A stretch of 64,000 nt of DNA from contig NZ_CP121699.1 of NCBI RefSeq assembly GCF_029761935.1, positions 2,728,001-2,792,000 of the forward strand, given 5' to 3'. Every line of letters starts with the position of its first letter. The first letter of the stretch is position 1. The notes under the pieces were generated by a model. It was not told the DNA's origin. It did no database searches and worked only from the letters and a program-made list of their open reading frames with translations. Below are positions 5,168-19,580 of this stretch, piece after piece. Source of the DNA: Microbacterium testaceum (GTDB lineage: Bacteria > Actinomycetota > Actinomycetes > Actinomycetales > Microbacteriaceae). Position numbers and translations under genes: made by a program.

Positions 5168-6385
5168 TCAGGCCGGGAACAGCCGGAGCGTCCCGGATGC
5201 CGTGACCTCGAGCCGCACGGCATCCAGCCCGTCGACGACGAGGTCGGCGGTCAACTCCTCTTCGGCGGTCGTGCCGGTGAGGGCGATCACGGCGCAGCCG
5301 GCGGCGCGGGCGGCGGCGATGCCGGCGGGGGCGTCTTCGACGACGAGGCAGCGTGACGGATCGACGCCGAGACGTTCGGCCGCCAGCAGGAACGGCTCGG
5401 GGTCCGGCTTTCCGTTGACCACGTCGTCCACGGTGACGAACACCGCGGGTCGCTCGTAGCCGGCGGCCGCCAGACGCGCGGTCGCGATCGGAACGGACCC
5501 CGACGTGACGATGGCCCGATGCTCCGCCGGGACGGATGCGAAGAAGTCCGCGGCTCCGCGGATGGGGGACAGGCCCACGGCATCCGCCACCTCGAGAGCG
5601 GTGACGTGCGCGATGGCCTCGGCCCCGCGCTCGGCGGGCAGGAGCAGGCTGACGAGGGTGCGCGCGGGTTGCCCATGGTTGGCGTGCAGGGCCTCCATCG
5701 ACACGTCGAAGTGCTCCGCGAAGCGCCGCCACGACCGGACGACGGATGCCGTGGAGTCCACGAGTGTCCCGTCGAGGTCGAAGAGCACCGCGTCGAACTC
5801 GCGTCGGAAGATCTCGGCGTCTGCGTCGACCGCCCGGCGAATCCCCAGCGCGGGGAGCACTCGGGCGAGTTGTTGTGCGGTCGAGAGTTCGGCGTCGACG
5901 GCGATCACCGGGATCGCCGGCGCCACGGGAGCGACGTCGGGGCGGTGCGCGTCGCGGGATGCTCCCCTCGCCGCGCGGCGGGACGCCAGGACGGCGGGGT
6001 CTCCGTCGACGTGCACGACGTGCGGCTCGGCGGGGGCGAGCGCGGCGACCAGCGCCTGCCACTCCTCGCCGCCGGAGAGCTCGGAGGTGAAGGGGGCGAC
6101 GATCACCACCCGGCCCGCTGTCGCAAGGGCATCTGCGGCGGTCGCGAGCAGGGCCGCGTAACGCCCGGCACGGATCGCCGGGGCGTGGGGGGAGGTGAGC
6201 CAGTGGCCGCCGCCGAAAGCGTCCGCGGGCAGGGCGTCGAGCAGGGGAGTGGTGACGCTGTCGAGGTCGACGAGGGGTGCTCGAAGGGTCTCGGCGATCG
6301 CGCGGCCGAGCGTGCTCTTGCCGCTCCCGGCCGTCCCGGCGACGACGACGGCGAGCGGATCGGGTATTTGACACGACGACGGCAT
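5168..6385 (-). CDS. P-loop sugar kinase-like domain fused to HAD phosphatase
   Basis: A 405-residue, two-domain cytosolic protein. Residues 10-185 form a small P-loop kinase resembling gluconate or shikimate kinases, with Walker A GTAGSGKST at 17-25. Residues 197-405 form a beta-phosphoglucomutase/sugar-phosphatase type HAD domain, with DLDGTLVDS (nucleophile D203), the motif II serine in VTSGS, and NGKPDPEPFLLAAERLG followed by VVEDAPAG. Kinase and phosphatase fused in one chain suggests a sugar or polyol phosphate substrate, but the substrate is unknown. The start at 6385 is preceded by TATGGT and 6 nt, which fits a leaderless message. It is divergent from the FGGY kinase gene and shares an operator-bearing promoter region with it. 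Confidence 0.8.
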   Translation of the reverse strand: MPSSCQIPDPLAVVVAGTAGSGKSTLGRAIAETLRAPLVDLDSVTTPLLDALPADAFGGGHWLTSPHAPAIRAGRYAALLATAADALATAGRVVIVAPFTSELSGGEEWQALVAALAPAEPHVVHVDGDPAVLASRRAARGASRDAHRPDVAPVAPAIPVIAVDAELSTAQQLARVLPALGIRRAVDADAEIFRREFDAVLFDLDGTLVDSTASVVRSWRRFAEHFDVSMEALHANHGQPARTLVSLLLPAERGAEAIAHVTALEVADAVGLSPIRGAADFFASVPAEHRAIVTSGSVPIATARLAAAGYERPAVFVTVDDVVNGKPDPEPFLLAAERLGVDPSRCLVVEDAPAGIAAARAAGCAVIALTGTTAEEELTADLVVDGLDAVRLEVTASGTLRLFPA

Positions 6386-6391
6386 ACCCCC

Positions 6392-6421
6392 ACCATAGAC
6401 GTAGCAAGTCACCGGTGTCAT
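6392..6421 (-). promoter_or_regulatory. promoter of the kinase-HAD gene
   Basis: Read on the minus strand, ATGACA (5 of 6 to TTGACA) is followed by an 18-nt spacer and TATGGT, then 6 nt and the ATG at 6385. The -35 element is embedded in the operator at 6407-6420, so a bound regulator would block polymerase. Confidence 0.5.
6407..6420. promoter_or_regulatory. operator-like site, TGACACCGGTGTCA family
   Basis: AGTCACCGGTGTCA matches 11 of 14 positions of the perfect palindrome seen at 18722-18735, including one complete half-site. It lies over the -35 of the minus-strand gene and within the likely leader of the plus-strand kinase gene. Confidence 0.5.
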
Positions 6422-6468
6422 GCTTGTAATTCCGGGACTCGACGAAGTTCCGGAAAGGACGGCCGCCC

Positions 6469-7839
6469 ATGCGAGACACCGGTGACATGGTTTCGGGGCC
6501 CGCGCGACTGCACGGCGGGCTCGACCTCGGCAGCACCGCGATCAAGATGCTCGTCATCGACGACGACGGCGCCGAGATCGCCGGTGCGCAGGTGTCGACG
6601 CCCTGGCGCGTCGGCGAGGGCGGAACGACCGACATCGACGCCGACGATCTGCTGCGCGCCATCCGCTCGCTCATCGAACTCATCGACGAGCAACTGATGC
6701 CGATCACCGCCGGTTCGCTGACCTCGCTCGCCGTGGCCGGCATGGGAGAGACCGGAATCCTCGTCGATGCTGAGGGGGCCGCTGCCGCGCCCGGCTTCGC
6801 GTGGTTCGACCCGCGCGGGCTCGAGCAGATCGCCGCCTTCCCGAGCGTGGTGCGCGAGGAGTTCGCCGGCCGCACGGGTCTCCCGCTCGGCGCGCAGGTG
6901 AGCGTCGCGAAGCTCGCGTGGTTGCGCGACCAGGGCACCTCGCTCGCGGGCCTGCGCTGGCTCGACCTGCCCGAGTTCGTGGTCGCCTCGCTCGGTGGCG
7001 ACATCGCCCTCGAGCTCTCGCTCGCGTCGCGCACCGGCCTCATCGACCAGGACTCCGGTGCCGCCTGGCCCGCGATGCTCGACGCTCTCGGCGTCGACGC
7101 CGACCTGCTCCCGCCGCTGCGCGGAGGGGGACTGCCCTGGGGGGAGGCATCCGGAGCCTTCGGCTCGCGCGTGGCGGGCGCGGCACTCACCGTCGCCGGT
7201 CACGACCACCTCGTCGCCGCTCAAGCGAACGGGACCCTGGACGCGGACGGATACCACGTGTCGCTCGGCACCGCCGAGGTGCTGCTGCGCGTGCTCGATG
7301 AGCCGCTCGGCTTCGCGGCTCGACAGCGGTTGGCTGACGCGCTCATCAACGAGGTGCGCCACGTCGTGCCCGGCAAGCACGTGCTGGTCGCCGGGGTGAA
7401 GACCGGGCTGCTGCTGCGTCGCGCTCTTCACGCCGCCGGCATCAGCGACCGCGCCGGGCGGGACGCCCTCGACGAAGCGGTCATGGCCCTCCCCGTCGAG
7501 GGCGAGCTGCCCGCAGGGGCCATCGAGGTCACCGGCGCGCGCAACGACGACGGCGTGCTGCGCCTCACCCTGCACACCGAGGCGTCGCCCGCCGAGATCT
7601 TCGGCGCCGTGCTGCGGCACAGCAACGACGAGGTCGCCGCCCTCATCGCGGCGATGGACCGCGAGGTCGCCCCGGCCACCCGCTCCACCCTCACCGGCGG
7701 TTGGGCGGGCATGGCGAGCGTCCGCCGCGCCCGCGCCGAAGTGCTCCCCGATCCGTCCCTGTCCACCCGCGAGCAGGACGTCGCGTGGGGAGCCGCCGAC
7801 ATGGCGCGGCGCCTCGTCTCGGCATCCGTCCCCTCCTGA
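6469..7839 (+). CDS. FGGY-family carbohydrate kinase
   Basis: A 456-residue ATP-dependent sugar kinase of the FGGY fold. The N-terminal phosphate-binding motif GLDLGSTAIKMLVIDDDG is near residue 15, a metal-binding GHDHLVAA segment near 245, SLGTAEVL near 265 and a C-terminal ATP-site glycine turn TGGWAGMASV near 410. The substrate is not assignable; the family includes xylulokinases and polyol kinases. An AAGGAC ribosome site precedes the ATG at 6469. A second ATG at 6487 lacks one. An operator-like repeat (6474-6487) overlaps the first codons. It heads a likely operon with an aldolase and a LacI regulator, so its product is probably cleaved by that aldolase. Confidence 0.85.
   Translation: MRDTGDMVSGPARLHGGLDLGSTAIKMLVIDDDGAEIAGAQVSTPWRVGEGGTTDIDADDLLRAIRSLIELIDEQLMPITAGSLTSLAVAGMGETGILVDAEGAAAAPGFAWFDPRGLEQIAAFPSVVREEFAGRTGLPLGAQVSVAKLAWLRDQGTSLAGLRWLDLPEFVVASLGGDIALELSLASRTGLIDQDSGAAWPAMLDALGVDADLLPPLRGGGLPWGEASGAFGSRVAGAALTVAGHDHLVAAQANGTLDADGYHVSLGTAEVLLRVLDEPLGFAARQRLADALINEVRHVVPGKHVLVAGVKTGLLLRRALHAAGISDRAGRDALDEAVMALPVEGELPAGAIEVTGARNDDGVLRLTLHTEASPAEIFGAVLRHSNDEVAALIAAMDREVAPATRSTLTGGWAGMASVRRARAEVLPDPSLSTREQDVAWGAADMARRLVSASVPS
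6474..6487. promoter_or_regulatory. second operator-like site in the kinase start region
   Basis: AGACACCGGTGACA matches 12 of 14 positions of TGACACCGGTGTCA. It is placed within the first codons of the kinase gene, 67 bp from the 6407 site, a distance that could allow looping between two bound dimers. Confidence 0.4.
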
Positions 7840-7915
7840 AGATCCTCGCGCCGACCCGCGCGCGAACAGACCACCCGCGCCGACCGGCGCGAACAGACCC
7901 CAGAGAAGAGAGATC

Positions 7916-8803
7916 ATGAACGCACTCACCACGATCGAGCGCCGCGCGCTTCAGTCGATCAGCACCCCTGACGGCCACATGCTCATCGTCGCCGCCGACC
8001 AGCGCAACGGCATGAAGGCCGCTATCAAGGACGCGCCCAACGGCTCCGATGCGATCTCGCGCGACGAGCTCGCCGAGGTGAAGGCCGACCTCGTGCGCCA
8101 CCTCGCCAACCACGCGCCGGCGATCCTGCTCGACCCCGAGGTCGCGCTGCCGCAGATCGTCGACGACGGTGTGCTCGCTCGTGACACCGCCCTCGTCGTC
8201 GGTCTCGACGCCTCGGGCGCCGAGACCGTCGACGGCCTGAAGTACACGCGCTTCGTCCCCGGAGCCACGCCGCACTCCATCCGCGAGCAGGGCGCGGACG
8301 TCGCCAAGATGCTCTGGTACACCCGCCCCGACAAACAGGACGCCGACTCCCGCGTCGCGCACGAGATCCGCGACCTTGTGCAGGCGTGCGAGGACGAGGG
8401 CCTGCTCCTCATCGTCGAGCTGCTGACCTACCAGCTCGAAGACGAGAGCGACGAAGAGTACACGGCGACCTTCGCCGACCTCGTCGTCGACGGAGCCGCC
8501 CTCGCCGTCGCCTGCGGTGCCAAGATCCTGAAGCTGCAGTACCCCGGCTCCGCCGAGGCGAGCGCCCGCGTGACCGAGGCCGCCCAGGGCGTGCCGTGGG
8601 CGGTGCTCTCGGCCGGCGTCGACCACGAGACGTTCATCGAGCAGGTGCGCACGGCCGTCGCCAACGGTGCCTCGGGCGCCATGGCCGGCCGGTCGCTGTG
8701 GAAGGACAGCCTCTCGATCGACGCCGACCGCCGCGAGGAGCTGCTCTCGGGCCGCGCCCTGCCGCGCCTGCGCGAGCTCGCCGACGCCGTCGACGGTCAC
8801 TGA
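7916..8803 (+). CDS. class I aldolase, LacD / tagatose-bisphosphate type
   Basis: A 295-residue TIM-barrel aldolase of the DeoC/LacD superfamily, close in layout to LacD and to the sulfofructose-phosphate aldolase YihT. The predicted Schiff-base lysine is K206 in KILKLQYPG; other family segments are LIVAADQRNGMK near residue 25 and GLKYTRFVPG near 108. It should split a ketose phosphate into dihydroxyacetone phosphate plus an aldehyde. The ATG follows a GAAGAGAG ribosome site. It stands 76 bp after the FGGY kinase and before a LacI regulator, which suggests sugar phosphorylation followed by cleavage. The true substrate is unknown. Confidence 0.8.
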   Translation: MNALTTIERRALQSISTPDGHMLIVAADQRNGMKAAIKDAPNGSDAISRDELAEVKADLVRHLANHAPAILLDPEVALPQIVDDGVLARDTALVVGLDASGAETVDGLKYTRFVPGATPHSIREQGADVAKMLWYTRPDKQDADSRVAHEIRDLVQACEDEGLLLIVELLTYQLEDESDEEYTATFADLVVDGAALAVACGAKILKLQYPGSAEASARVTEAAQGVPWAVLSAGVDHETFIEQVRTAVANGASGAMAGRSLWKDSLSIDADRREELLSGRALPRLRELADAVDGH

Positions 8804-8956
8804 GATGACCACGCCCGCCCGGGTCGGGGCGCGCTCACCGCGGGTGCACGCGGGGGAGCGTCGCTGCGGCCCCGGGCGGGCGGGTCCGACCCGTCGCCAG
8901 ATAGGGTGGGCTGTCGGAGCAGCCCCCCGCCCGATCCGCTGCCTCGGAGGTGTCTC

Positions 8957-9937
8957 GTGACCACCATGCGCGATGTCGCCCTGCGAGCCGGGGTGAGCAC
9001 CAAGACCGTGTCGCGCGTCTTCAACGACGACCCGCACGTGCTGCCCGACACCCGCGCCCTCGTCGAGGCCGCGATGCGCGAACTCAACTACGTCCCCAAC
9101 GCCCTGGCGACGACCTTCCGCGCCGGTCGCGCCTCGGTCATCGGGGTCGCTGTTCCCGACGTCGTCGACCCGTTCTTCGCCGCGATCGCGCGGTCGGTCG
9201 AAGACGCCGCCCGACGGCGCGGGCTCTCCACCCTCGTCACCAGCCTCGGCGAGGATCCTGCCGACGAACGTCCCGCTCTGGAGTCTCTCCTGGGGCGTCA
9301 ACTCACCGGCCTGGTGATCGCCCCCGTCGGGACCGACCACTCGTGGCTCGAGCGCTGGCGCGGCCACACCCCGATCGTCTTCGTCGACCGCGCCCCGGTG
9401 GGTCTGCTCACCGACACGTTCACCGAGAACGACGAAGCGGGCGCCCATCTCGCGACCGCCCATCTGCTCTCGCACGGCCACCGTCGCATCGCCTACGTGG
9501 GCGACATGGTGCACCTGTCGACCGAGACGAAGCGCGTCGAGGGCTGGCGACGAGCGCTCCGCGAAGCCGGGGTCGACGTCGACGAACAGCTGATCGCCTC
9601 GCAGGTGTCGGATCGCGAGTCCGCGGCATCCGCCCTCGAACGCCTGCGCGCGCTCGCCGACCCGCCCACCGCCGTCTTCTCGGCCAACGCACGCTCGTCG
9701 ATGGCTCTCGCCCACGTGCTGCGCGGGCAGTCGCTACCGTTCGTCGGATTCGGCGACTTCCCGATGGCCGACACCCTGACCCCCTCGGTCACGGTCGTCG
9801 ACCAGGATCCGCGCCGCATCGGAGCGCTCGCGGCTGAACGCGTCTTCGCGCGCCTGCAGCCCGACGCCGGTCTCGGCCTCGACGAGCTGACGGTCATCGA
9901 CGTGTCGCTCGTCGAGCGGGAGTCCTGCGGCCTCTGA
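8957..9937 (+). CDS. LacI-family transcriptional regulator
   Basis: A 326-residue repressor with the LacI helix-turn-helix and hinge (MRDVALRAGVSTKTVSRVFN) followed by a periplasmic-binding-protein-like sugar sensor. I chose the GTG at 8957 because CGGAGG lies 6 nt upstream; ATG 8966 is the alternative. It ends the kinase-aldolase cluster. It is the only LacI protein within the two blocks that carry TGACACCGGTGTCA sites, so it is the best candidate to bind them. That link is inference. Confidence 0.9.
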   Translation: MTTMRDVALRAGVSTKTVSRVFNDDPHVLPDTRALVEAAMRELNYVPNALATTFRAGRASVIGVAVPDVVDPFFAAIARSVEDAARRRGLSTLVTSLGEDPADERPALESLLGRQLTGLVIAPVGTDHSWLERWRGHTPIVFVDRAPVGLLTDTFTENDEAGAHLATAHLLSHGHRRIAYVGDMVHLSTETKRVEGWRRALREAGVDVDEQLIASQVSDRESAASALERLRALADPPTAVFSANARSSMALAHVLRGQSLPFVGFGDFPMADTLTPSVTVVDQDPRRIGALAAERVFARLQPDAGLGLDELTVIDVSLVERESCGL

Positions 9938-9983
9938 TCGGCGCTTCGGGGTCCGGGAGGCCCGCGTGATCGATCCGCCGAAG

Positions 9984-10022
9984 CGACGGGCACGGCACCC
10001 CCCAATGGTGCCGTGCCCGTCG
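9984..10022. terminator. hairpin terminator after the LacI gene
   Basis: A perfect 16-bp stem (CGACGGGCACGGCACC at 9984-9999 with 10007-10022) and a 7-nt loop. There is no T-tract, as is common in high-GC actinobacteria. Confidence 0.65.
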
Positions 10023-10176
10023 CCGACGGACCGGGAAGCCTCTCCCGGTCGCTCGCGCGCGGGGTTTCCCCCACGGACGCCCGCGCGCGGTCGTCATCCA
10101 TACAAGCACAGCGTCTCGTAAATAGCACCCGCGCTGGGATTGTAAATACGATCATCCTTGCGTCGTCGTGGGCGTC

Positions 10177-10182
10177 TACGAT
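10177..10182 (+). promoter_or_regulatory. -10 box of a leaderless start
   Basis: TACGAT ends 6 nt before the GTG at 10189. The region just upstream is unusually AT-rich for this genome and carries two similar GTAAATA words (near 10117 and 10142) that could be an operator. Confidence 0.45.
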
Positions 10183-10188
10183 CGGAAT

Positions 10189-10833
10189 GTGGGTCGCGGC
10201 GCTGTCGGACCGCCCTCGCGGTACTCCCGCCGAGTGGTGGCGAATGTGGACCGCCTGCGTCGGGCGAAAGGTCTGACCGTGGGCGAGCTGCTCAGCCGCG
10301 CCGGAATGACGAAGAGCTACTACCAGTCGCGCGCGGGCTTCTCTCTGCCGTACAACACGAACGACATCGAGGCGCTCGCCGCCGCCCTCGGAGTGGCCCC
10401 CGAAGAAGCCGCGAACCCCGACTCCGCGCCCCGGGTCGAGATGCGCGTCCCCGCGGCCCCCCTCGCCGCCCGCGTCCGTCGACTCGTCCACAGCCAGGGG
10501 GCGACGGAGAACGACCTCGTCGATCACCTCGATGAGATCGACCCCGCCGCCGCCGAGAGCGCGCGTGCCCTCCTCGCCGCCGCGACCAACACCGTCGTGC
10601 TCGACGAAGAGGTCCTGCGCCTGATCACGCACTGGGCCGACGTGCCGACCGAGTACCTCACCGACTACACCGACGACGCGGTGACCGACCGGACCGACGC
10701 CGAGCTCGAACTGCGCGACGCGATGCGCGAGGCGGGAGCGAGCAGCATCCAATTCCGCGCCCTCGGCGAGATGTCGCCCGACGCCCTCCGCGCCATCGCG
10801 CACTCCCTGCGAAGCAGGCCGCCCGCGACATGA
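10189..10833 (+). CDS. XRE-type helix-turn-helix regulator
   Basis: A 214-residue protein with an N-terminal XRE-like DNA-binding region (VDRLRRAKGLTVGELLSRAG, then YNTNDIEALAAALGV) at about residues 18-75. An all-helical C-terminal part of about 130 residues matches nothing I recognise. No ribosome site precedes any candidate start; the GTG at 10189 is favoured because TACGAT lies 6 nt upstream, giving a leaderless message. It is followed 22 bp later by an ImmA/IrrE-type protease gene. In established examples that pairing means the protease inactivates the adjacent HTH repressor in response to stress. Confidence 0.75.
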   Translation: MGRGAVGPPSRYSRRVVANVDRLRRAKGLTVGELLSRAGMTKSYYQSRAGFSLPYNTNDIEALAAALGVAPEEAANPDSAPRVEMRVPAAPLAARVRRLVHSQGATENDLVDHLDEIDPAAAESARALLAAATNTVVLDEEVLRLITHWADVPTEYLTDYTDDAVTDRTDAELELRDAMREAGASSIQFRALGEMSPDALRAIAHSLRSRPPAT

Positions 10834-10855
10834 TCAGCCGTGAGGGGGGACGGTG

Positions 10856-11317
10856 GTGACGGAAGCGGACGAGATGCTCGCCCGCGTGCAGGCGCGCGCC
10901 GACCGCGCGATCCAGCACGCCGGTCTCGCCGCCGGCATGACCTTCGACCAGGTCGTCCACGCGGTCGAGCAGGCGCTCGAGATCCGCTTGCGCATCGTCC
11001 CCGAGACCGACACGGCGGGGTGGGGCACGTTGACCGGTTTCCTCACCTACTTCGCCGATCGACGCGAGGGCAGCATCCACGTCCGCGCCTCGGATGCCGC
11101 GATCTACAGCCAGTTCGCCGCCTCCCACGAACTGGGGCACCTCCTCGACGACGCCCACTGCTCCGGCGCTCTGCACGAGCGTTCCTCGGTCTCACCCCAT
11201 GACAATCCCCTATTGACCACGCCGGAGTACGAGGCGGAACTCGTCGCCGAGCACATCGCGCACCGGATCGCGCGCCTGCTGTACACCTCACCGAGGGTGG
11301 CCGAGTCGTCGTGGTGA
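10856..11317 (+). CDS. ImmA/IrrE-family metallopeptidase
   Basis: A 153-residue small zinc metallopeptidase with the HExxH helix at H91-E92-L93-G94-H95 (SHELGHLL) and a downstream YEAELVAEHIAHRIA helix that would supply the third ligand glutamate. The start at the second GTG (10856) has GAGGGGGGA 5 nt upstream. Family members such as ImmA and IrrE cleave or inactivate a partner HTH repressor; the regulator immediately upstream is the obvious partner. The stop codon overlaps the start of the membrane-protein gene, so the two are translationally coupled. Confidence 0.82.
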   Translation: MTEADEMLARVQARADRAIQHAGLAAGMTFDQVVHAVEQALEIRLRIVPETDTAGWGTLTGFLTYFADRREGSIHVRASDAAIYSQFAASHELGHLLDDAHCSGALHERSSVSPHDNPLLTTPEYEAELVAEHIAHRIARLLYTSPRVAESSW

Positions 11318-12237
11318 CCGTCCTTCTGATCGACGCGGCGCTGGCGGGGCTGCTTCTCGTCGTCGTGCTCCGGGCCCGCGTCGCCTGGCGCCAGCCGCGG
11401 GCGCGCATCGCGTGGCTCGCCGCTCTCATCGGCTGCATCGCCCTGCTCACGCAGGGCACCGTCATCCGCCTCGAGATCCTCGACGGGTTTCTCGGCGGAA
11501 CGAACGTCCTCAAGCTCGTGCAGAACGTGCTCACCATGGTGGCGCTGTGGCTCGGCATCCAGGCGGGTACCGCTCCGGTGACCGCGCGGATCCGCACCCT
11601 GCGGTGGTGGTTCCCCGGCCTGCTCGGCGCGCTGTTCGCGGTGGTCTTCTTCGCCGCCCTCCCCGAGCGGGGGACGTCGTCGTTCCGGTTCCTCGAGGAT
11701 GCGGCGATGACCTCGACCGGCGCGTGGGCGTACGGCGTGCTGCACATGGCGGGTATCGCGCTCGTCGGCCTGCTGCTGTTCCGCTCGGCCCGCGGATCGC
11801 TGCCGAAAACACGCGTCTTCTTCCGCGTCGGGGCGGTGGGGATCGTTCTCGGGTGCCTCAGTGAGATCCTCGACCTGACGCTGTCGCGGTTCTTCGAGCC
11901 CAACGCGCTGGTCAGTGCGCTGTTCGATCCGCTCTTCTACCTCGGGGTCGTCTCGTTCGTGATCGGGATCTTCGTGGCATCCCGCACGACGACGCGCATC
12001 CGCCGCCGCGGCGATGAGCTGCTGGCGCGGCTCGAGCCGGTCGCCCGGGAGCGTGGAGTGGACTCGTTCCCCGGGCTCCCGGCCGATGCCGTCGCCGACA
12101 CGCGCCTCCACGCCCTGCGGGTCGCCGTCGAAGACGACGCGATCGCCACCTCGACGCCGCTCAGCCCTCCTCAGCGCGCTCTGCTCGATGACATCGACGC
12201 CCACCTGACTCGACGAACCACGGGAGTCCACCCATGA
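11314..12237 (+). CDS. seven-helix membrane protein of the MAB_1171c-like type
   Basis: A 307-residue integral membrane protein. Seven hydrophobic segments fill residues 1-235 (the first LLIDAALAGLLLVVVLRA, the last YLGVVSFVIGIFVA), and a charged cytosolic tail of about 75 residues follows. The arrangement recalls actinobacterial MAB_1171c-like putative transporters or sensors that occur beside ImmA/IrrE genes; this is recollection, not a search result. The GTG at 11314 gives a GTGA overlap with the protease gene, and its own stop overlaps the next ATG (ATGA). It could sense or transport the signal that triggers the protease. Confidence 0.65.
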   Translation: MTVLLIDAALAGLLLVVVLRARVAWRQPRARIAWLAALIGCIALLTQGTVIRLEILDGFLGGTNVLKLVQNVLTMVALWLGIQAGTAPVTARIRTLRWWFPGLLGALFAVVFFAALPERGTSSFRFLEDAAMTSTGAWAYGVLHMAGIALVGLLLFRSARGSLPKTRVFFRVGAVGIVLGCLSEILDLTLSRFFEPNALVSALFDPLFYLGVVSFVIGIFVASRTTTRIRRRGDELLARLEPVARERGVDSFPGLPADAVADTRLHALRVAVEDDAIATSTPLSPPQRALLDDIDAHLTRRTTGVHP

Positions 12238-13370
12238 TCCGATCCCTCGCCGTCGGCACCGGAGTCGCCGCCGCGACTCTCGCCCTGGCTCACACGGCCG
12301 TCGCCGGATACGTCGCCCGCCGTCTCATCGCGCCGCGCGCTCCGAAGGTGTACGCCCCGATCACGGTCGCGGGCGACACCGTCTCGGTGCCGGCCACGCT
12401 GGAGAGCCGCGAGCCGGGCACGTACGGCCTGTGGCTCGACGACGGTCGGCACCTGGTCGTCGGCGAGCCGCTGCGCATCGGGAAGGACCGGGTCGTGCGC
12501 GCGCTGGCGGCGCGACCGGAGGGCCTCGAAGACGGGGATGCCGTGGCCACCTGGACCTCGCAGAGCATCGGTGCCCCCGAGGAGGTCGGGCCCACTCGAC
12601 ACGTCTCGGTGCCGCTTCGACGCGGCGGAGTCGCGGAGGCCTGGGAGATCGGCGACCGCGACACCGCGGACGGACGGTGGACGATCCACGTCCACGGCCT
12701 GCGCTCCAGCCGCAACGGTGCTTTGCGCTCCACCCCGGCCGCCGCCGCCGCGGGGTGGATGTCGCTCGTCGTCTCGTACGCGGGCGATGAGGAGTGCGCC
12801 CCCGCCGATTCCCTCCCCTCGACGCTCGGGACGCGCGAGTGGAGAGACGTCGACGACGCGATCTCGTACGCCGTCGACCAGGGGGCGCGCGAGATCGTGC
12901 TCGTCGCCTGGTCGATGGGGGGAACGATCGCGATGCTCGCGCTCGAGCAATCGGCACACCGCGACCGCGTCACCGCCCTCGTGCTCGTCGCGCCGGCCCT
13001 CGACTGGACGCGCGTGGTCGAGAACGCCGTCGCGGGCGCCCACCTTCCGCGCTCGGTGGCGGGAGCATCGATGCGCATCCTGGGCAGCGCCCTCGGCGCG
13101 CGGGCACTCGGACTCATCGAGGGCGTGAACGCCCCGGCGCTCAACTGGGTCGACGGTCCCCGGCCCGCGCCTCGCGTCCCCACCCTGATCGTGCACAGCC
13201 TGCGCGACCCCGTGGTGCCGGTGAGCGGGTCGCTCGCGTACGTGAAACGGCATCCCGAGGCCGAGCTCGTCGCGTTCGACGCGACCGGTCACTGCAACGA
13301 GGCGAACCAGGACCCGACGCGGTTCCACGACGCCATCGCGGGGTTCCTGCGGAGCCGACCGCGCACCTGA
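12234..13370 (+). CDS. membrane-anchored alpha/beta hydrolase
   Basis: A 378-residue protein with an uncleaved-looking N-terminal hydrophobic helix (residues 4-27), a beta-rich region of about 110 residues, then an alpha/beta-hydrolase domain. The predicted triad is S227 in AWSMGG, D325 in HSLRDPVVPV and H353 in ATGHCNE. It is the fourth gene of the HTH-protease-membrane-protein operon, overlapping the previous gene by 4 bp. The substrate is unknown; an ester, amide or lipid-like signal is possible. It ends 13 bp from the convergent mannitol-type dehydrogenase. Confidence 0.78.
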   Translation: MIRSLAVGTGVAAATLALAHTAVAGYVARRLIAPRAPKVYAPITVAGDTVSVPATLESREPGTYGLWLDDGRHLVVGEPLRIGKDRVVRALAARPEGLEDGDAVATWTSQSIGAPEEVGPTRHVSVPLRRGGVAEAWEIGDRDTADGRWTIHVHGLRSSRNGALRSTPAAAAAGWMSLVVSYAGDEECAPADSLPSTLGTREWRDVDDAISYAVDQGAREIVLVAWSMGGTIAMLALEQSAHRDRVTALVLVAPALDWTRVVENAVAGAHLPRSVAGASMRILGSALGARALGLIEGVNAPALNWVDGPRPAPRVPTLIVHSLRDPVVPVSGSLAYVKRHPEAELVAFDATGHCNEANQDPTRFHDAIAGFLRSRPRT

Positions 13371-13383
13371 CCCGCCCGGGCCG

Positions 13384-14844
13384 TCAGTCGGCGAGGGCGG
13401 CGATCGCTCCGCGCGCCCCGCGCTCGGCCAGCGACGCCCGCGCCGCGAGGTAGGCCTCGCGCAGGCGGGGGTTCTGCCCGAGGTCGCCGAAGACGGGTGC
13501 GTAGTCGAGGAGCGACGCAGGGTCGTCGGCGACGATCGCCCGCAGTTCGTCGAGACGGCTGTCGACCGCGGGCGTCTCTTCGCCCGACTCGGTGCGCCCC
13601 TCGAGGAAGACGCTCCACCCCGCGAGCACGAGCGCGGCGCGGTCGATGCGGCCGCCCGAGGCGAGCTGCTCACGCACGACCGGCAGCAGGAACTTCGGCA
13701 GGCGGTCCGAGCCGTCGACGACCTGGCGCGCAAGGGTGTCGCGGATTGCCTCACTGCCGAAACGGGCGATGAGCTGGTCGCAGTAGGCGTCGAGGTCGAT
13801 CCCCGGGACCGCGCGGAGCGTCGGGATCGCCTCGTCGTGCATGTATCCCTGCAGGAAGTCGACGAACAGCGGGTCGGTGCACACCTCGTGCACGTAGTGC
13901 GCGCCCGAGAGGATGCCGAGGTAGCTCATGGCCTGGTGCGAGGCGTTGAGCAGGCGCAGTTTCATCAGCTCGTAGGGCTCGACGTCGTCGACCAGCTGCA
14001 CGCCGACCTCGTCGAACGGTGGGCGGCCGGCGGGGAAGGCGTCTTCGAGCACCCACTGCTCGAACGACTCGCTGCGCACCGGCCAGCGGTCGCGGATGCC
14101 GAACTCCGAGGCGATCGCGTCGCGCGTCTCGTCGGTGGTCACGGGCGTGATGCGGTCGACCATCGAGTTCGGGAACGACACGTTCTCGGCGATCCAGCTC
14201 GACAGCTCGGCGTCGCGCCGCTCGGCGAAACCGAGCAGGGCCGCACGGGCGACGTGTCCGTTGCCCTGGATGTTGTCGCACGACATGACGGTGAAGGCCG
14301 GGATGCCGGCATCCCGGCGTCGGCGAAGAGCTTCGGTGAGCAGACCCATGACGCTGCGCGGCGGGGTCGCACCGTCGAGGTCGGCGAGCGTTGCCTCGTC
14401 GCGCGGGGCGTAGGCGCCGGTGGCGTCGTCGATGCCGTACCCGCCCTCGGTGATGGTGAGAGAGGCGATCGCGGTGTCGGGGGCGGCGAGCTTCGCGACC
14501 ACGGCCTCGGGGTCATCGGGCACGAAGAGGTACTCGACGATGGAGCCGACGACGCGGGCGGTGGAGGTCCCGTCGGGCGCGGTCGTGACGAGCGTGTAGA
14601 GGTCGTCTTGAGCGGCGAGGGCGTCGCGCATGGACGCGTCGAACGACAGGACCCCGACTCCGCACAGGCCCCACTCGGTGTGGCCGGCTTCGAGCAGGCG
14701 GTCGAGGTACATGGCCTCGTGCGCCCGGTGGAAGCCGCCCACGCCGAAGTGCACGATGCGCGCGCGCACGGCCGACCTGTCGTACGTCGGAACGGAGACG
14801 TTCGCCGCGAGGGAGGGGAGGGAGGCGGCGGTGAGGTCGGTCAT
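13384..14844 (-). CDS. mannitol/fructuronate-type polyol dehydrogenase
   Basis: A 486-residue NAD(P)-dependent long-chain polyol dehydrogenase of the mannitol 2-dehydrogenase / fructuronate reductase family. It has the nucleotide-binding region IVHFGVGGFHRAHEA near residue 30, a SNxxG-like MSCDNIQGNG segment near 190 and the catalytic KxxxxNxxH pattern in KLRLLNASH. It interconverts a polyol such as mannitol, arabitol or sorbitol with its ketose. The ATG at 14844 has a GGAG site. It is the last gene of the transporter operon, separated by a 160-bp gap that holds a long hairpin and a G-run. Confidence 0.88.
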   Translation of the reverse strand: MTDLTAASLPSLAANVSVPTYDRSAVRARIVHFGVGGFHRAHEAMYLDRLLEAGHTEWGLCGVGVLSFDASMRDALAAQDDLYTLVTTAPDGTSTARVVGSIVEYLFVPDDPEAVVAKLAAPDTAIASLTITEGGYGIDDATGAYAPRDEATLADLDGATPPRSVMGLLTEALRRRRDAGIPAFTVMSCDNIQGNGHVARAALLGFAERRDAELSSWIAENVSFPNSMVDRITPVTTDETRDAIASEFGIRDRWPVRSESFEQWVLEDAFPAGRPPFDEVGVQLVDDVEPYELMKLRLLNASHQAMSYLGILSGAHYVHEVCTDPLFVDFLQGYMHDEAIPTLRAVPGIDLDAYCDQLIARFGSEAIRDTLARQVVDGSDRLPKFLLPVVREQLASGGRIDRAALVLAGWSVFLEGRTESGEETPAVDSRLDELRAIVADDPASLLDYAPVFGDLGQNPRLREAYLAARASLAERGARGAIAALAD

Positions 14845-14865
14845 GCGGGGCTCCGTGGTCGATGT

Positions 14866-14929
14866 GCGTGAGTCGCCAGATTCTGTCGCTTCAGGGGTGT
14901 CGGAAGCGACAGACCATGGCGACTCACGC
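14866..14929. repeat. long imperfect inverted repeat (27-bp arms)
   Basis: Arms 14866-14892 and 14903-14929 pair except for 3 central bases, with a 10-nt loop; the outer half is GCGTGAGTCGCCA and the inner half TCTGTCGCTTC. It sits between the binding-protein gene and the dehydrogenase gene of one operon. It could attenuate or stabilise the message there. Confidence 0.75.
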
Positions 14930-14931
14930 GC

Positions 14932-14958
14932 GGGGAGGGGGGGAGGGGGGAGGGGGGG
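14932..14958 (+). other. G-quadruplex-like run
   Basis: Runs of 4, 7, 6 and 7 guanines are separated by single adenines on the plus strand, directly beside the long hairpin. The neighbouring genes run on the minus strand, so the G-rich strand is the template strand. It could slow polymerase between the binding-protein and dehydrogenase genes. Confidence 0.6.
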
Positions 14959-15004
14959 ATGCCGGGACGCCGCGTGAGCGCGAGATCCCGGCATCCGGAA
15001 TCGA

Positions 15005-15994
15005 TCAGCAGGAGGACTTGTAGACCGCGTCCTTGCCGTCGGTGGTGATGTTGTCCTTCGTCAGGATGGTGAAGCCGGTCTGGATCTTGGCTTCGGTGCT
15101 CTCGCCCTTCAGCGCGGCGATGGCCTGCTTGACGCCGTCTTCGCCGATGGTGGCGGGTTCCTGCGCGACGAGGGCCTGGACGGTGCCGGCCTCGAGGGCT
15201 TTGACCTGCGCGGGGCCGGCGTCGAAGCCGACGATGGTGACCTGGCCCTGCTTGCCGGCCTGCTGGACGCCGGTGGCGGAGCCTTCGGCGGCGAACAGGT
15301 TGGCGGCGAAGATGCCGACGATGTCGGGGTCCTTCTGCAGCGCCGCCGTCACGATCTCCGCAGCCGTGGAGGGTTCGTTGTGGGAGTACTGCACGCCCAC
15401 CGACTCGAACTTGGAGTCCTTCTTGACGGCGTCTTCGAAGCCCTGGGCGCGGGCGTCGGTGGTGGACACACCCGGGTCGGTGGAGACGACGAGGACCTTG
15501 CCGCCGCCCGGGTTGGCCTTCTGGATCGCCTCGAACGCCGCGGCTCCGCCGCCGTTGTTGTCGGAGGAGATCTGCGAGACCGCGCCGGAGGGGTCTTCGA
15601 GCGTCGTGTCGACGAGCACGACCTTGATGCCGGCTGCCTCGGCGGCCGCGATGGGCGCCTGCATGGCCGAGACGTCGGTGGGGGCGATCAGCAGCGCGTC
15701 GGGCTTGGAGGCCACGACCGCGTCGACGATCGGCTTCTGAAGCGTCGGGTCGAACTTCTCGGGACCCTGGGTGGTGACGGTCGCACCCTCCTTCTCGGCC
15801 TCGGCCTGGATGCCGCACTGCATCGAGATGTAGAACTCATCTCCCGCGACGCCCTGCACGAACGCGATCTTGTACCCGCCGTCGGCGCCGCCGGACGCGC
15901 CGCCCGAGGACGCACCGCCCGAGCACCCCGCGAGGGTCAGCGTCGCCGCCATGCCGAAGACCGTCAGGGCGGTCGCCTTCTTGTTCCACTTCAT
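15005..15994 (-). CDS. sugar ABC transporter substrate-binding lipoprotein (RbsB/FrcB type)
   Basis: A 329-residue exported lipoprotein. The signal peptide MKWNKKATALTVFGMAATLT is followed by the lipobox LAGC, with the cysteine at about residue 23, and a Gly/Ser linker. The mature part is a periplasmic-binding-protein type I fold (KPDALLIAPTDVSAMQAPIA, GIFAANLFAAEG, VTIVGFDAGPAQVKAL). ATG 15994 gives a normal signal peptide; GTG 16003 is also possible. It delivers a monosaccharide or polyol to the RbsC-type permease encoded upstream. Both flanking gaps carry G-quadruplex-like runs. Confidence 0.92.
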   Translation of the reverse strand: MKWNKKATALTVFGMAATLTLAGCSGGASSGGASGGADGGYKIAFVQGVAGDEFYISMQCGIQAEAEKEGATVTTQGPEKFDPTLQKPIVDAVVASKPDALLIAPTDVSAMQAPIAAAEAAGIKVVLVDTTLEDPSGAVSQISSDNNGGGAAAFEAIQKANPGGGKVLVVSTDPGVSTTDARAQGFEDAVKKDSKFESVGVQYSHNEPSTAAEIVTAALQKDPDIVGIFAANLFAAEGSATGVQQAGKQGQVTIVGFDAGPAQVKALEAGTVQALVAQEPATIGEDGVKQAIAALKGESTEAKIQTGFTILTKDNITTDGKDAVYKSSC

Positions 15995-16038
15995 TGTGAT
16001 CACCGTTCTTTTCTGGAGTACTGCTGTCGGGTTGGTAA

Positions 16039-16056
16039 GGGGTGGGGAGGGAGGGG
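16039..16056 (+). other. second G-quadruplex-like run
   Basis: GGGG-T-GGGG-A-GGG-A-GGGG on the plus strand in the 75-bp gap between the permease and binding-protein genes. Like the run at 14932 it lies on the template strand of the operon. Confidence 0.55.
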
Positions 16057-16069
16057 ATGCCGCCGCGGA

Positions 16070-17155
16070 TCAGCCGCGTCGACCTCCGCTGAGGAACTTG
16101 CGCCAGAGGCCCTGCGAGGTACCGCGGGTCGCGGCGGTGCGGCGCACCTGGTCGACGTAGACCGCCGCGATCAGCACCGCGCCGACGGCGACCTGCTGCC
16201 AGAAGGGCTGCACGCCGGTGATGACGAAGCCGTTCTGCAGCACCGCGGGGATGAACAGGCCCACGACGGTGCCCATGATCGTGCCGACCCCGCCGAAGAG
16301 CGAGGTGCCGCCGATGACGACGGCCGCGATGACGTTCAGGTTGGTCTGGGACTGGCCGGCGATGGCGGTCGTGGAGAACTGGGAGAGAGACAGGATGCCG
16401 CCGAGCCCGGCCAGGGCGCCGGAGATCGTGTAGATCTTGATCAGCTGTGCGTCGACCTTCACACCGACGCGGCGGGCGGCGATCTCGCTCGAGCCCACGG
16501 CCAACGTGTAGAGGCCGAAGCGCGTGAAGTGCAGGACGACAGCGCCGATCAGCACCACGACGAGCGCGATGACGCTGATGATCGGGACGGATCCGAATAC
16601 GTTGCCGTAGCCGATCGAGACGGTCAGCACGGTGGGCACGTCGCGGATGTCGACGCCGCCGGTGAGGATCTGCGCGAGACCGAGCGCCATTCCCAGCGAG
16701 CCGAGGGTGACGATGAGCGGCGGGATCTTCGCCTTCGCGATGAGGAAGCCGTTGAACAGCCCCCAGCACACGCCGCTCAGGACCGCGACGATGATGCCGA
16801 CCGTGGCGACGCCCCACCCCTCGCCGCCCATCGCTCGCATAACGAGGGCCGACACGACCCCCGAGAAGACGAGGACGGACCCGACCGACAGGTCGATGCC
16901 GGCGGTGATGATGACGTAGGTCATGCCGACGGCGAGCACCGCGAGGATCGAGGCGTTCTGGATGATGAGGCGGAAGTTCGACCACTGGGCGAACGAGTCG
17001 GGCGCGATGATGCTGAAGACGATGATGATCGCCAGCAGAACCAGGAGGATCTGGAACGCCTGCGTGCGCAGGACCGCGGCGACCGGGTTGGTCTTCTTGT
17101 TGTCGTCGAACGTGCCGATCGCGACGGTCTCGGTCGGGGGAGTCTTGAGGCTCAC
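16070..17155 (-). CDS. sugar ABC transporter permease (RbsC/FrcC type)
   Basis: A 361-residue inner-membrane permease of the ribose/fructose family, with about eight to ten hydrophobic helices from residue 33 on. The family loop ITAGIDLSVGSVLVFSGVV and the VVIGGTSLFGGVGTIMGT motif are present. It starts at a GTG (17155) inside the stop of the ATPase gene (GTGA overlap), so the two are coupled. It forms the channel of the importer with the ATPase and binding protein. Confidence 0.92.
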   Translation of the reverse strand: MSLKTPPTETVAIGTFDDNKKTNPVAAVLRTQAFQILLVLLAIIIVFSIIAPDSFAQWSNFRLIIQNASILAVLAVGMTYVIITAGIDLSVGSVLVFSGVVSALVMRAMGGEGWGVATVGIIVAVLSGVCWGLFNGFLIAKAKIPPLIVTLGSLGMALGLAQILTGGVDIRDVPTVLTVSIGYGNVFGSVPIISVIALVVVLIGAVVLHFTRFGLYTLAVGSSEIAARRVGVKVDAQLIKIYTISGALAGLGGILSLSQFSTTAIAGQSQTNLNVIAAVVIGGTSLFGGVGTIMGTVVGLFIPAVLQNGFVITGVQPFWQQVAVGAVLIAAVYVDQVRRTAATRGTSQGLWRKFLSGGRRG

Positions 17156-17928
17156 TTCTGGTCGTCCTTCGTGACGGCGCCGGTCATGAGTCCGACGAGC
17201 TCTTCCATGGAGGTGTCCTTGGCGTTGATGTTGGCGACGCGGGTCCCGAGGCGCAGGACCTGGATGCGGTCGCTAACGTCGATGACGTGCGGCATCGAGT
17301 GCGAGATGAAGACCACGGCGATGCCCTTGTCACGCACGCGCCGGATGGTCTCGAGCACGTTCTTGGTCTGACGCACACCGAGGGCGGCGGTCGGCTCGTC
17401 CAGGAACACGACTCGCGAGGCCCAGTGCACGGCGCGGGCGATCGCGATGGCCTGACGCTGACCGCCCGACATCTCGCCGACGGGCGAGGTGAGCGAGCGG
17501 ACGGTGGCGCCGAGTTCGTCGAATGCGTCGCGGGAGGCCTTCGCCATGTCCTTGGTCTTCATGAAGCCGAGCGCTCCCGCGAGGCCGGGGCGGCGGATCT
17601 CGCGGCCCAGGTACATGTTCTGCACCGGGTCGAGGTGGGGGGCGAGAGCGAGGTCCTGGTAGACGGTCTCGATGCCGAGGCCGGAGGCGATCTGCGGGTT
17701 CGACATGTCGATGGGCTTGCCGTCGAAGAGGATCTCGCCCTCGTCGACCGCGAGGTTGCCCGAGAGGGCCTTCACGAGTGTCGACTTGCCGGCGCCGTTG
17801 TCGCCGATCAGGGCAGTGACCTCACCCGGGTAGACCTCGAAGTCCACGTTGTTGAGGGCGCGGACGGATCCGAACTGACGCGACAGGCCTCGCGCCTGCA
17901 GCACGGGCGTGGCCGTGGTGGTGCTCAT
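17152..17928 (-). CDS. sugar ABC transporter ATPase (FrcA type)
   Basis: A 258-residue single-domain ATPase, half the length of RbsA/XylG proteins, as in the fructose (FrcA) systems. Walker A is GDNGAGKST near residue 40, the signature is MSGGQRQAIAIARA near 145, Walker B is VVFLDEPTAALG, and the switch histidine is in FISHSMPHV. ATG 17928 follows GAAGGAG. It overlaps the kinase gene upstream and the permease gene downstream by 4 bp each, so all three are translationally coupled. Confidence 0.93.
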   Translation of the reverse strand: MSTTTATPVLQARGLSRQFGSVRALNNVDFEVYPGEVTALIGDNGAGKSTLVKALSGNLAVDEGEILFDGKPIDMSNPQIASGLGIETVYQDLALAPHLDPVQNMYLGREIRRPGLAGALGFMKTKDMAKASRDAFDELGATVRSLTSPVGEMSGGQRQAIAIARAVHWASRVVFLDEPTAALGVRQTKNVLETIRRVRDKGIAVVFISHSMPHVIDVSDRIQVLRLGTRVANINAKDTSMEELVGLMTGAVTKDDQK

Positions 17929-18614
17929 GAGGAAGCTCCTTCGTGGGGACCGACGGGGGCATCGGAGACGGTGACGACGAGGTCGGCGCGGTCGCGCCCG
18001 CGTTCGACGACGAGGGCATTGCGCTCGTCGACCTCGCGGACCCAGGCGACGGCTTCGTCGTAGGGGTGGTCGTGGGAGAGGCGCCGCGCGACAAGGCGCT
18101 CGCGGCGCGCGGGGGAGTCGATGTCGAGGAACCACACCTCGTCGAGGCGCGAGGCGACGGCATCCCACCCGAACTCGTCGTGCAGCAGGTAGTTGCCCTC
18201 GGTGATGACGAGAGGAACGCGGGCGGGCACGAGCACCGCCGAGCCGATCGACTCCTCGAGGGCGCGGTTGAAGCGCGGGGCATAGACCTCGTGCCCGGCG
18301 CGGATGCGATCGAGCAGGGCGACGTAGCCCTCGACGTCGAAGGTGTCGGGGGCGCCCTTGCGGTCGCGCCGGCCGAGGCGTACGAGCTCCTCGTTGGCGA
18401 GGTGGAAGCCGTCCATGCCGACGAGCACCGCGTCGTCGCCGAGGGCGGCGAGCAGGGCGTCGCTGACGGTCGACTTGCCCGCGCCGGGGGTGCCGGCCAC
18501 GCCCAGGATGCGCCGCTCGCCCGACGTCGCGAGCTGCCGGGCACGGGCGACGAGGTCGTCGAGGTGCACGGTCGCGGCGGCGGTCGTCGCGTCGTTCTCC
18601 GAGGTGTGGGTCAC
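17925..18614 (-). CDS. FrcK-like nucleoside/sugar kinase
   Basis: A 229-residue P-loop kinase of the uridine kinase / pantothenate kinase-like group, with Walker A GVAGTPGAGKST near residue 40, the conserved MDGFHLANEEL near 70 and a VPLVITEGNYLLHD segment near 135. Proteins of this type sit beside FrcBCA fructose transporters (FrcK) and are thought to phosphorylate the imported sugar or help transport; that role is by analogy. It starts at GTG 18614 and is the first gene of the transporter operon, directly downstream of the operator cluster. Confidence 0.82.
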   Translation of the reverse strand: MTHTSENDATTAAATVHLDDLVARARQLATSGERRILGVAGTPGAGKSTVSDALLAALGDDAVLVGMDGFHLANEELVRLGRRDRKGAPDTFDVEGYVALLDRIRAGHEVYAPRFNRALEESIGSAVLVPARVPLVITEGNYLLHDEFGWDAVASRLDEVWFLDIDSPARRERLVARRLSHDHPYDEAVAWVREVDERNALVVERGRDRADLVVTVSDAPVGPHEGASS

Positions 18615-18706
18615 AGCGGTGTGGTCCTTCCGGGCGACGCACCACGGCGGAGTGCTGCGTCGATGAAGCGGGTCCGGCGGGGGTGTCCACCGGTCGAACT
18701 CCGGTT

Positions 18707-18736
18707 ACGGTAAGCCCACCGTGACACCGGTGTCAA
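18707..18736 (-). promoter_or_regulatory. promoter of the ABC transporter operon
   Basis: On the minus strand a perfect TTGACA (plus-strand 18731-18736) is followed by an 18-nt spacer and TACCGT (18707-18712). The -35 hexamer lies within the palindromic operator at 18722-18735, so regulator binding would block initiation. Confidence 0.6.
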
Positions 18737-18770
18737 CACCCGTGACCAATTCGTCATGACACCGAAGTCA
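18722..18770. promoter_or_regulatory. cluster of three TGAC-N6-GTCA operators
   Basis: Three sites share the TGAC-6-GTCA pattern: TGACACCGGTGTCA (18722-18735, a perfect palindrome), TGACCAATTCGTCA (18743-18756) and TGACACCGAAGTCA (18757-18770). They fill the gap between the divergent transporter operon and SDR gene. The first covers the -35 of the operon and the last lies at the -35 position for the SDR promoter. Related sites occur at 6407 and 6474. Confidence 0.65.
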
Positions 18771-18788
18771 TCCGCGTGATTCTGTGGT

Positions 18789-18794
18789 TATCAT
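18789..18794 (+). promoter_or_regulatory. -10 box of the SDR gene
   Basis: TATCAT, 57 nt before the ATG at 18852, with the TGACACCGAAGTCA operator about 18 nt upstream where a -35 element would fall. Confidence 0.4.
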
Positions 18795-18851: not shown

Positions 18852-19580
18852 ATGACCGAATTCACCGACCGCACCATTCTCGTCACCGGAGCCGGTGGCG
18901 GCATCGGAGGCGCGACCGTGCGCCACCTCGTGGCCGCCGGCGCGACGGTCCTCGCCGCGGGTCGCGACGCCGACAGCGTCGCCGCGATCAGCGCCGAAAC
19001 CGGTGCCGAGCCCGTCGTGTTCGACCTCGAATCCGAAGACGAGATCCGCGCGGCCATCGAGGGCCGCGACATCTACGGCGTCGTCAACTGCGGCGGCTGG
19101 GGCGGCGAGATCGCGACCCCGATGGACACCGACATCGACGTGTTCGACAAGGTCATGCGCATCAACGCGCGCGGCTCGCTGCTGGTCACCAAGTACGCCT
19201 CGCGCGAGATGATCCGCGTCGGCAAGGGCGGCGCGATCGTGAACGTCTCCAGCCAGGCGAGCCTCGTCGCCCTCACCGGTCACATCTCTTACGGATCGTC
19301 GAAGGCCGCCCTCGACAACATCACCCGGGTCTCGGCCCTCGAGCTCGGTGGCTACGGCATCCGCGTCAACAGCGTGAACCCCACGGTCGTCATGACCCCG
19401 ATGTCGGCTTGGTACTGGGGTCGTCCCGACATCGAGGGTCCCTTCCTCGAGGCCATGCCGCTGCACAAGTGGGCCACCGAAGACGACATCGCGGCGCCGA
19501 TCGTGTTCCTCCTCGGCGACGGCGCCGGCATGATCTCGGGCGTCTCGCTTCCCATCGACGGCGGCTACTCCAGCCGCTGA
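18852..19580 (+). CDS. short-chain dehydrogenase, L-xylulose reductase (DCXR)-like
   Basis: A 242-residue SDR. The dinucleotide motif TGAGGGIGG is near residue 12, VNCGG near 79, catalytic serine in NVSSQAS near 136 and YGSSK near 149. The segment VNPTVVMTPM and the tail AGMISGVSLPIDGG closely follow the pattern of dicarbonyl/L-xylulose reductases, which interconvert a ketose and a polyol with NAD(P). It is divergent from the sugar ABC operon across the operator cluster. It therefore likely oxidises or reduces the imported polyol or sugar. Confidence 0.85.
   Translation: MTEFTDRTILVTGAGGGIGGATVRHLVAAGATVLAAGRDADSVAAISAETGAEPVVFDLESEDEIRAAIEGRDIYGVVNCGGWGGEIATPMDTDIDVFDKVMRINARGSLLVTKYASREMIRVGKGGAIVNVSSQASLVALTGHISYGSSKAALDNITRVSALELGGYGIRVNSVNPTVVMTPMSAWYWGRPDIEGPFLEAMPLHKWATEDDIAAPIVFLLGDGAGMISGVSLPIDGGYSSR

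Follow-up and report, generated by a model that had tools for sequence, protein, structure and literature searches.

Whether two blocks of polyol genes in one stretch of the Microbacterium testaceum genome carry the same operator, and whether one regulator reads it in both, is the question addressed here. The stretch (64,000 nucleotides, NZ_CP121699.1, positions 2,728,001 to 2,792,000; hereafter the window) holds, in block 1, a gene for a kinase fused to a HAD-type domain (kinase-HAD) that is divergent from an operon for an FGGY kinase, an aldolase and a LacI-family protein (LacI 8957). In block 2, genes for a FrcK-like kinase, an ABC ATPase, a permease, a binding protein and a mannitol-type dehydrogenase lie together, divergent from a gene for a short-chain dehydrogenase (SDR). 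We consider it likely that LacI 8957 is a local repressor of both blocks, acting via TGWCAYCGRTGWCA palindromes, and that the genes serve the import, oxidation, phosphorylation and cleavage of one sugar alcohol or rare sugar, with a ketohexose or hexitol as our best guess.

Four predicted operators lie at two divergent promoter regions

The clearest of the sites, O3 (TGACACCGGTGTCA, 18722 to 18735), is a perfect 14-bp palindrome between the FrcK-ABC operon and the SDR gene and overlaps the putative -35 hexamer of the FrcK operon. Thirty-five bp from it lies O4 (TGACACCGAAGTCA, 18757 to 18770), which matches at 12 of 14 positions. Block 1 has two further sites with the same score: O1 (AGTCACCGGTGTCA, 6407 to 6420), which overlaps the putative -35 hexamer of kinase-HAD, and O2 (AGACACCGGTGACA, 6474 to 6487), which lies within the first codons of the FGGY gene. 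All four are even palindromes with a central CG, and O1, O2 and O3 have the ACCGGT core in common. Both putative promoters are on the minus strand; at O3 the hexamer TTGACA is the complement of 18731-18736 and is followed after 18 nt by TACCGT, and at O1 the hexamer ATGACA is the complement of 6416-6421 and is followed after 18 nt by TATGGT. Across the window, 11 sites with at most three mismatches were counted, compared with a mean of 3.15 and a maximum of 8 in 100 shuffles.

An earlier note on this DNA had described most of this arrangement correctly, including the palindrome at 18722, the 12/14 score of the site at 6474 and the overlap of two sites with -35 hexamers at 18-nt spacing; its score of 11/14 for the site at 6407 is corrected here to 12/14. 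It had also counted two TGAC-N6-GTCA variants beside the palindrome. The window does contain three copies of that pattern (18722, 18743 and 18757), and the one at 18757 is kept in close relatives. The copy at 18743 was rejected as a third operator of this region, as it matches at 8 of 14 positions, has no central CG and retains its TGAC half in two of ten close relatives.

For kinase-HAD the more probable start codon is at 6385 (MPSSCQ...), about 7 bases below the putative -10 element (6392-6397). Because the start codon would lie just below that element, the arrangement suggests a leaderless transcript.

The motif is concentrated at these promoters in the genome

In the 3.38-Mb genome, TGACACCGGTGTCA occurs as a single exact copy. 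With up to two mismatches allowed there are 12 positions, compared with one for the reversed control, and four of the 12 lie in the two promoter regions of the window; seven of the remaining eight are inside predicted open reading frames, and the sole other intergenic position (C1:1315941) precedes a small gene that reads from its sequence as WhiB-like. The relaxed pattern TGWCAYCGRTGWCA, with up to one mismatch, gives 10 positions compared with one for the control, namely the same four and six inside predicted genes. Given the counts against the reversed control and the intragenic location of nearly all other positions, we reject the motif as a product of chance or as a genome-wide repeat, and the genome-wide scan that the earlier note had called for found the motif concentrated at these two promoter regions, not scattered over random promoters.

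One of the six intragenic positions, C1:2719045, falls close to where a DUF4432 gene ends, some 110 bp ahead of a LacI gene that belongs to a sister cluster (L097, C1:2714.8-2727.7 kb). This cluster is upstream of the window, at a distance of about 0.3 to 13 kb. Besides LacI proteins of its own and palindromes with an AACGTT core, it has FGGY and PfkB kinases, class II aldolase (two aldolase types) and a second ABC importer. Its importer resembles that of the window closely (92.6% identity for the ATPase, 85.9% for the permease and 96.7% for the binding protein), and recent duplication or gene conversion of the importer copies is possible. Pairs of binding-protein copies within one genome are likewise similar in two other loci, with 100% identity over a 106-residue fragment in L110 and 94.2% in L115, next to the 96.7% of our own genome.

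Relatives keep the sites upstream of the same genes

We scanned an alignment of seven aldolases over genome contigs and took the best 80 of 106 loci, which span Microbacterium, Agromyces, Leucobacter, Rhodococcus, Actinoplanes-like genera, Prauserella, Streptomyces, Cellulomonas, Arthrobacter, Demequina and others. In these 80 loci, TGWCAYCGRTGWCA with at most one mismatch occurs 220 times in 246 kb of intergenic sequence, compared with 37 times in 1343 kb of intragenic sequence (a ratio of about 32), and one or more intergenic sites are present in 76 loci. The genes were delimited with a simple gene caller, so the operon counts are approximate, and the 10-kb flanks cut many clusters short. 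By our operon rule, a site precedes the FGGY or aldolase gene in 47 loci, an SDR, ABC, FrcK or dehydrogenase gene in 45, both in 20 and either in 72; in L157, L158, L159 and L163 the rule gave no operon, though sites precede genes there.

Among the predicted regulon members of these loci, LacI is present in 54, FGGY in 44, the aldolase in 43, SDR and binding protein in 34 each, permease and ATPase in 33 each, kinase(-HAD) in 31, the mannitol-type dehydrogenase in 18 and FrcK in 17; the kinase-HAD relatives were recognised by sequence clustering and not by match to a named reference. Smaller sets of three to six loci have zinc-type dehydrogenases, a sugar-porter MFS transporter, a mannose-isomerase-like epimerase or an apparent second ABC type. 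LacI, FGGY and aldolase are thus the mostly constant part of the system across loci, while transporter and dehydrogenase vary.

Conservation extends to the individual operators. After its first base, O1 reads GTCACCGGTGTCA in all 18 of the loci L101-L118 (Microbacterium, Agromyces and Leucobacter), and O2 is retained as ACACCGGTG[AT]CA in 16 of them, while the codons that directly follow diverge. One of these loci, L101, comes from Microbacterium testaceum StLB037, and its aldolase is 99% identical to that of the window. The 10 nearest relatives within the genus all keep the 35-bp spacing of O3 and O4 before the SDR gene, and in four of them O3 reads TGTCACCGGTGTCA. Among 149 genus genomes, 15 SDR orthologues were found, that of our genome included, and upstream of each lies a LacI-type palindrome, with the core ACCGGT in 12, ATCGAT in two and AACGTT in one.

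Ten loci (L132, L141, L142, L149, L153, L167, L169, L172, L173 and L179) have asymmetric sites, TGACAACGGTGTCA and TGACAACGATGACA, before ABC operons, most of which have FGGY and aldolase genes. A sister-type LacI (37-42% identical) adjoins in seven of the ten, as if two operator types were mixed.

The motif tracks orthologues of LacI 8957

If LacI 8957 reads these palindromes, the motif should follow its orthologues, which the earlier note had proposed to check along with conservation upstream of the same genes. Both expectations were borne out in relatives with a LacI orthologue, in the aldolase loci as well as in the family and genus genomes. In the family set of 199 genomes, 11 carry an orthologue at least 52% identical to LacI 8957. 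Three or more exact copies of TGWCAYCGRTGWCA occur in nine of the 11 carriers and in two of the 188 other genomes (p=2.6e-12); for at least two copies the counts are 10/11 and 10/188, and for at least one copy 11/11 and 55/188, single sites being common in non-carriers because TGWCAYCGRTGWCA is a relaxed pattern. The exact 14-mer occurs in four of the nine family genomes that have an aldolase orthologue of at least 66% identity (our own included), compared with four of 190 others, and in eight of the 14 LacI carriers among the 149 genus genomes, compared with three of 135 others. Seven of those eight carriers have it between SDR and FrcK, and the remaining one, G281, has it inside another gene.

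Our own genome has 19 matches to the LacI helix-turn-helix, and LacI 8957 alone falls in the clade formed by the LacI proteins of the relatives' clusters; the next paralogues, 41% and 39% identical to it, are outside that clade. The tree left out one match (L088), which is 30% identical to LacI 8957. The case for one regulator is clearest in G069, in which both blocks form one cluster whose only LacI is 62% identical to LacI 8957; the exact motif is present at three promoters and a two-mismatch site lies just before the LacI gene. In G176, TGACATCGATGTCA is on the aldolase contig and the exact motif on the SDR contig. The choice of LacI 8957 as best candidate therefore holds, given that it is the only clade member among the 19 and that the motif co-occurs with its orthologues. 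The wider proposal of the earlier note, that one regulator controls both blocks, is supported by conservation, co-occurrence and the single LacI of G069, but separate LacI paralogues in four relatives count against it.

Weighing the alternatives

Several observations weigh against a single LacI-type repressor of both blocks and against the pathway proposed for them. G011, G050, G120 and G175 each have two LacI paralogues, one beside each block, with differing operators (TGTCATCGATGTCA before FGGY and TG[A/T]CACCGGTGTCA before SDR). G281 has a LacI orthologue, but its SDR site is AACGTT, of the sister-regulon type, and G224 has an SDR gene with a site and no LacI match at an E-value of 1e-90. 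Four of the 80 aldolase loci (L136, L151, L164 and L175, of which L175 belongs to a metagenome-assembled genome with the label Pseudomonadota) have no intergenic site. Seven non-carrier loci with the exact 14-mer were inspected; three copies are intragenic, and four are intergenic and adjoin no orthologue of the pathway. In the family genomes with neither LacI nor aldolase orthologue, those of G161 and G057 are intragenic and those of G124 and G148 intergenic; in the genus non-carriers, that of G217 is intragenic and those of G245 and G329 lie between genes of unknown kind. Among the NCBIfam matches listed, the FrcK-like kinase alone reaches an equivalog cut-off (NF006743, a broad name), the other enzymes being below theirs. 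Lastly, while the motif, its conservation, its co-occurrence with LacI 8957 and the gene families come from the sequence, we infer from them binding, repression, inducer, reaction order and substrate; of these, binding and repression are predictions, and substrate and reaction order are guesses.

Could LacI 8957 serve its own operon only, and another LacI, such as the sister LacI at C1:2719.2 kb, serve the FrcK/SDR block? The four family genomes with a separate paralogue per block are a precedent, the sister importer is nearly identical to that of the window, and the SDR of G281 has a site of the sister type. We nonetheless consider such a division of labour unlikely in our genome, which has one clade member only, in which O1, O2 and O3 have an identical ACCGGT core, and in which the sister LacI, at 41% identity, adjoins AACGTT-core sites. 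That the motif belongs to a broader regulator, LacI-type or other, and that its presence at both blocks is incidental, we regard as very unlikely: palindromes with a central CG are general in the LacI family, the site at C1:1315941 lies in intergenic DNA ahead of an unrelated gene, and some exact 14-mers are intergenic in genomes without the LacI, but our genome has no further well-matching promoter sites and the motif co-occurs with the LacI 8957 clade across genomes. The sign of the regulation is a separate matter. Paired sites and divergent promoters are compatible with LacI 8957 being an activator or dual regulator at some promoters, and activation by CcpA is discussed in the parts of PMC2329647 consulted; however, the overlap of O1 and O3 with putative -35 hexamers fits repression, and we find activation or dual regulation quite improbable.

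Genes of the two blocks and a proposed pathway

In block 1, the kinase-HAD gene (5168 to 6385, minus strand) is predicted to encode a P-loop kinase (AAA_33) fused to a HAD sugar-phosphatase-like domain (Pfam AAA_33, Hydrolase and HAD_2); its best NCBIfam match is the PRK11587 sugar phosphatase, at 158 bits compared with a cut-off of 282, the profile searches having used the open reading frame 5168-6421. On the plus strand follow the gene for the FGGY-family carbohydrate kinase (6469 to 7839; Pfam FGGY_N), with none of seven NCBIfam matches above its own cut-off, and that for the DeoC/LacD-family class I aldolase (7916 to 8803; Pfam DeoC, 82.8 bits), whose closest solved relatives include sulfofructosephosphate and tagatose-bisphosphate aldolases. 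The gene for LacI 8957 (8957 to 9937, plus strand; searched as 8906-9937), the regulator predicted to bind O1-O4, has the domain make-up of the LacI family, with a helix-turn-helix (PF00356, 69.1 bits) and a sugar-binding, periplasmic-binding-protein-like sensor domain (PF00532 and PF13377).

The operon of block 2 is on the minus strand. Nearest to O3 is the predicted FrcK-like kinase of the PRK09270 family (17925 to 18614; top solved relative 3c8u, 'Fructokinase'), which exceeds the curated cut-off of NF006743 (278 bits compared with 227). It is followed by a single-domain ABC ATPase (17152 to 17928; Pfam ABC_tran), an ABC permease (16070 to 17155; Pfam BPD_transp_2), a CUT2-type sugar-binding protein (15005 to 16003; Pfam Peripla_BP_4; top solved relative 5dkv, 203 bits) and a polyol dehydrogenase of the mannitol dehydrogenase family (13384 to 14859; Pfam Mannitol_dh; top solved relative mannitol dehydrogenase 1lj8, 436 bits). 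The SDR gene (18852 to 19580, plus strand; Pfam adh_short_C2) is L-xylulose-reductase-like, with L-xylulose reductase 1pr9 as top solved relative (151 bits).

These families suggest the following model. LacI 8957 would bind the TGWCAYCGRTGWCA palindromes at O1/O2 and O3/O4 and, when no inducer is present, would cover the -35 regions and block the kinase-HAD, FGGY-aldolase-LacI, FrcK-ABC-mannitol-type dehydrogenase and SDR transcripts. Steric block is the simplest reading because O1 and O3 overlap putative -35 hexamers, and the repressor would also control itself, since its gene is third in the O1/O2 operon. A ketose, a polyol or a phosphorylated intermediate would release it. The ABC system of the regulon would then import a ketohexose or hexitol, the MtlD-type enzyme and the SDR would oxidise polyol to ketose, FGGY plus FrcK and/or the P-loop kinase would phosphorylate the ketose, and the LacD-type aldolase would split the product into two C3 units. 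Alternatively, a ketose-1-phosphate may be cleaved, with a kinase acting on the aldehyde released. The sister enzymes would suit a route from ketose to ketose-6-phosphate, 1,6-bisphosphate and trioses, and by analogy the window set would rely on the LacD-type aldolase and, for phosphorylation, on FrcK or the P-loop kinase.

That the substrate is a ketohexose or hexitol rather than a pentose or pentitol is a guess, to which we give somewhat better than even odds. Naming it from the solved relatives was considered and, the support being weak, not adopted. The structure 5dkv is reported to have been solved with D-tagatose; a literature search for 5DKV found nothing.

Relation to known systems

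Local regulons of LacI-family proteins, as collected in RegPrecise (PMC4052901), are a well-known kind, and the present one resembles them, as far as the parts consulted go, in its even central-CG palindrome, its sites at promoters, its positional self-regulation and its set of genes for one pathway. According to the same parts, LacI-family operators are mostly even palindromes with a central CG (1173 of 1303 transcription factors). The known regulons differ in that the parts consulted do not mention the present orthologue group or motif; tagatose, mannitol, Rhodococcus and Microbacteri- do not occur in the main text. The four exact 14-mer operator forms were not found in the literature searched, in which we also recognised no matching pathway.

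The frcBCAK fructose uptake genes of Sinorhizobium meliloti likewise combine an ABC importer with a FrcK kinase gene and have a link to polyol use; the parts of that study consulted leave the FrcK substrate open (PMC10433430). Unlike there, dehydrogenases, an FGGY kinase and an aldolase are here joined under one LacI-type operator, and the resemblance is by family matches. The window aldolase belongs to the same DeoC/LacD superfamily as the LacD tagatose-bisphosphate and YihT sulfofructosephosphate aldolases, but it falls below the cut-off of the LacD equivalog (TIGR01232; 52.8 compared with 432.2) and of PRK12858 (153.8 compared with 184). The GntR and IdnR operators of E. coli have the ACCGGT core that O1, O2 and O3 share; LacI 8957, in contrast, is far below the equivalog cut-offs for these regulators (78.1 bits compared with 433, and 73 compared with 500). 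The regulon is a well-supported one for genes whose matches here are to broad families only; it extends to many genera of actinobacteria, leaf isolates among them, and places FrcK beside an FGGY kinase and an aldolase.

Hinge residue and operator core change together

The differing operator cores of relatives can be compared with the LacI proteins beside them. We used 74 LacI proteins, omitting loci that had no LacI orthologue or two of them, or that gave no usable site; for 17 of the proteins (own, family and genus genomes) the operator core was assigned manually by adjacency, and L191 gave no hinge. At hinge position 52 (own numbering), where LacI 8957 has Thr, 18 of the 74 have Arg, and all 18 have T as the majority base beside the central CG; in the 56 without Arg the majority base is C in 47, T in two and tied in seven. 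Counted as half-sites in single-LacI loci, a Thr hinge goes with 181 C, 54 T and nine others, and an Arg hinge with 47 T, 11 C and two others. In G338, one of the 74, the TCGA of the SDR site was observed before the hinge, which was then read as Arg.

The covariation suggests that the core (C-CG-G or T-CG-A) follows the hinge residue (Thr or Arg), a lead and not proof. Positions 5, 9 and 49 of our LacI also covary, and the tree has two hinge changes and three core changes, with at most three for both combined; with so few switches, we do not claim the hinge residue as sole determinant. The literature searched, including the parts of PMC2329647 and PMC4052901 consulted, does not settle the question. 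The set amounts to a natural series of repressor/operator pairs with joint changes in hinge residue and operator core.

A bolder reading would make of all this a widespread actinobacterial regulon for an undescribed ketose-bisphosphate route, in which FGGY acts at C6, a PRK-like kinase (FrcK or P-loop) at C1 and the LacD-type aldolase cleaves the product, the sister regulon runs the same route with other enzymes and a nearly identical importer, the hinge residue (Thr or Arg) sets the base beside the central CG, and paralogues insulate the two halves of the pathway. As a whole we consider it doubtful, and offer it as a tentative scheme.

In CcpA, a conserved Leu intercalates at the central CG, according to the parts of PMC2329647 consulted. 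LacI 8957 and the aligned RbsR differ at residue 54 in the hinge helix (Phe and Leu, respectively), and this Phe is common to the clade members listed.

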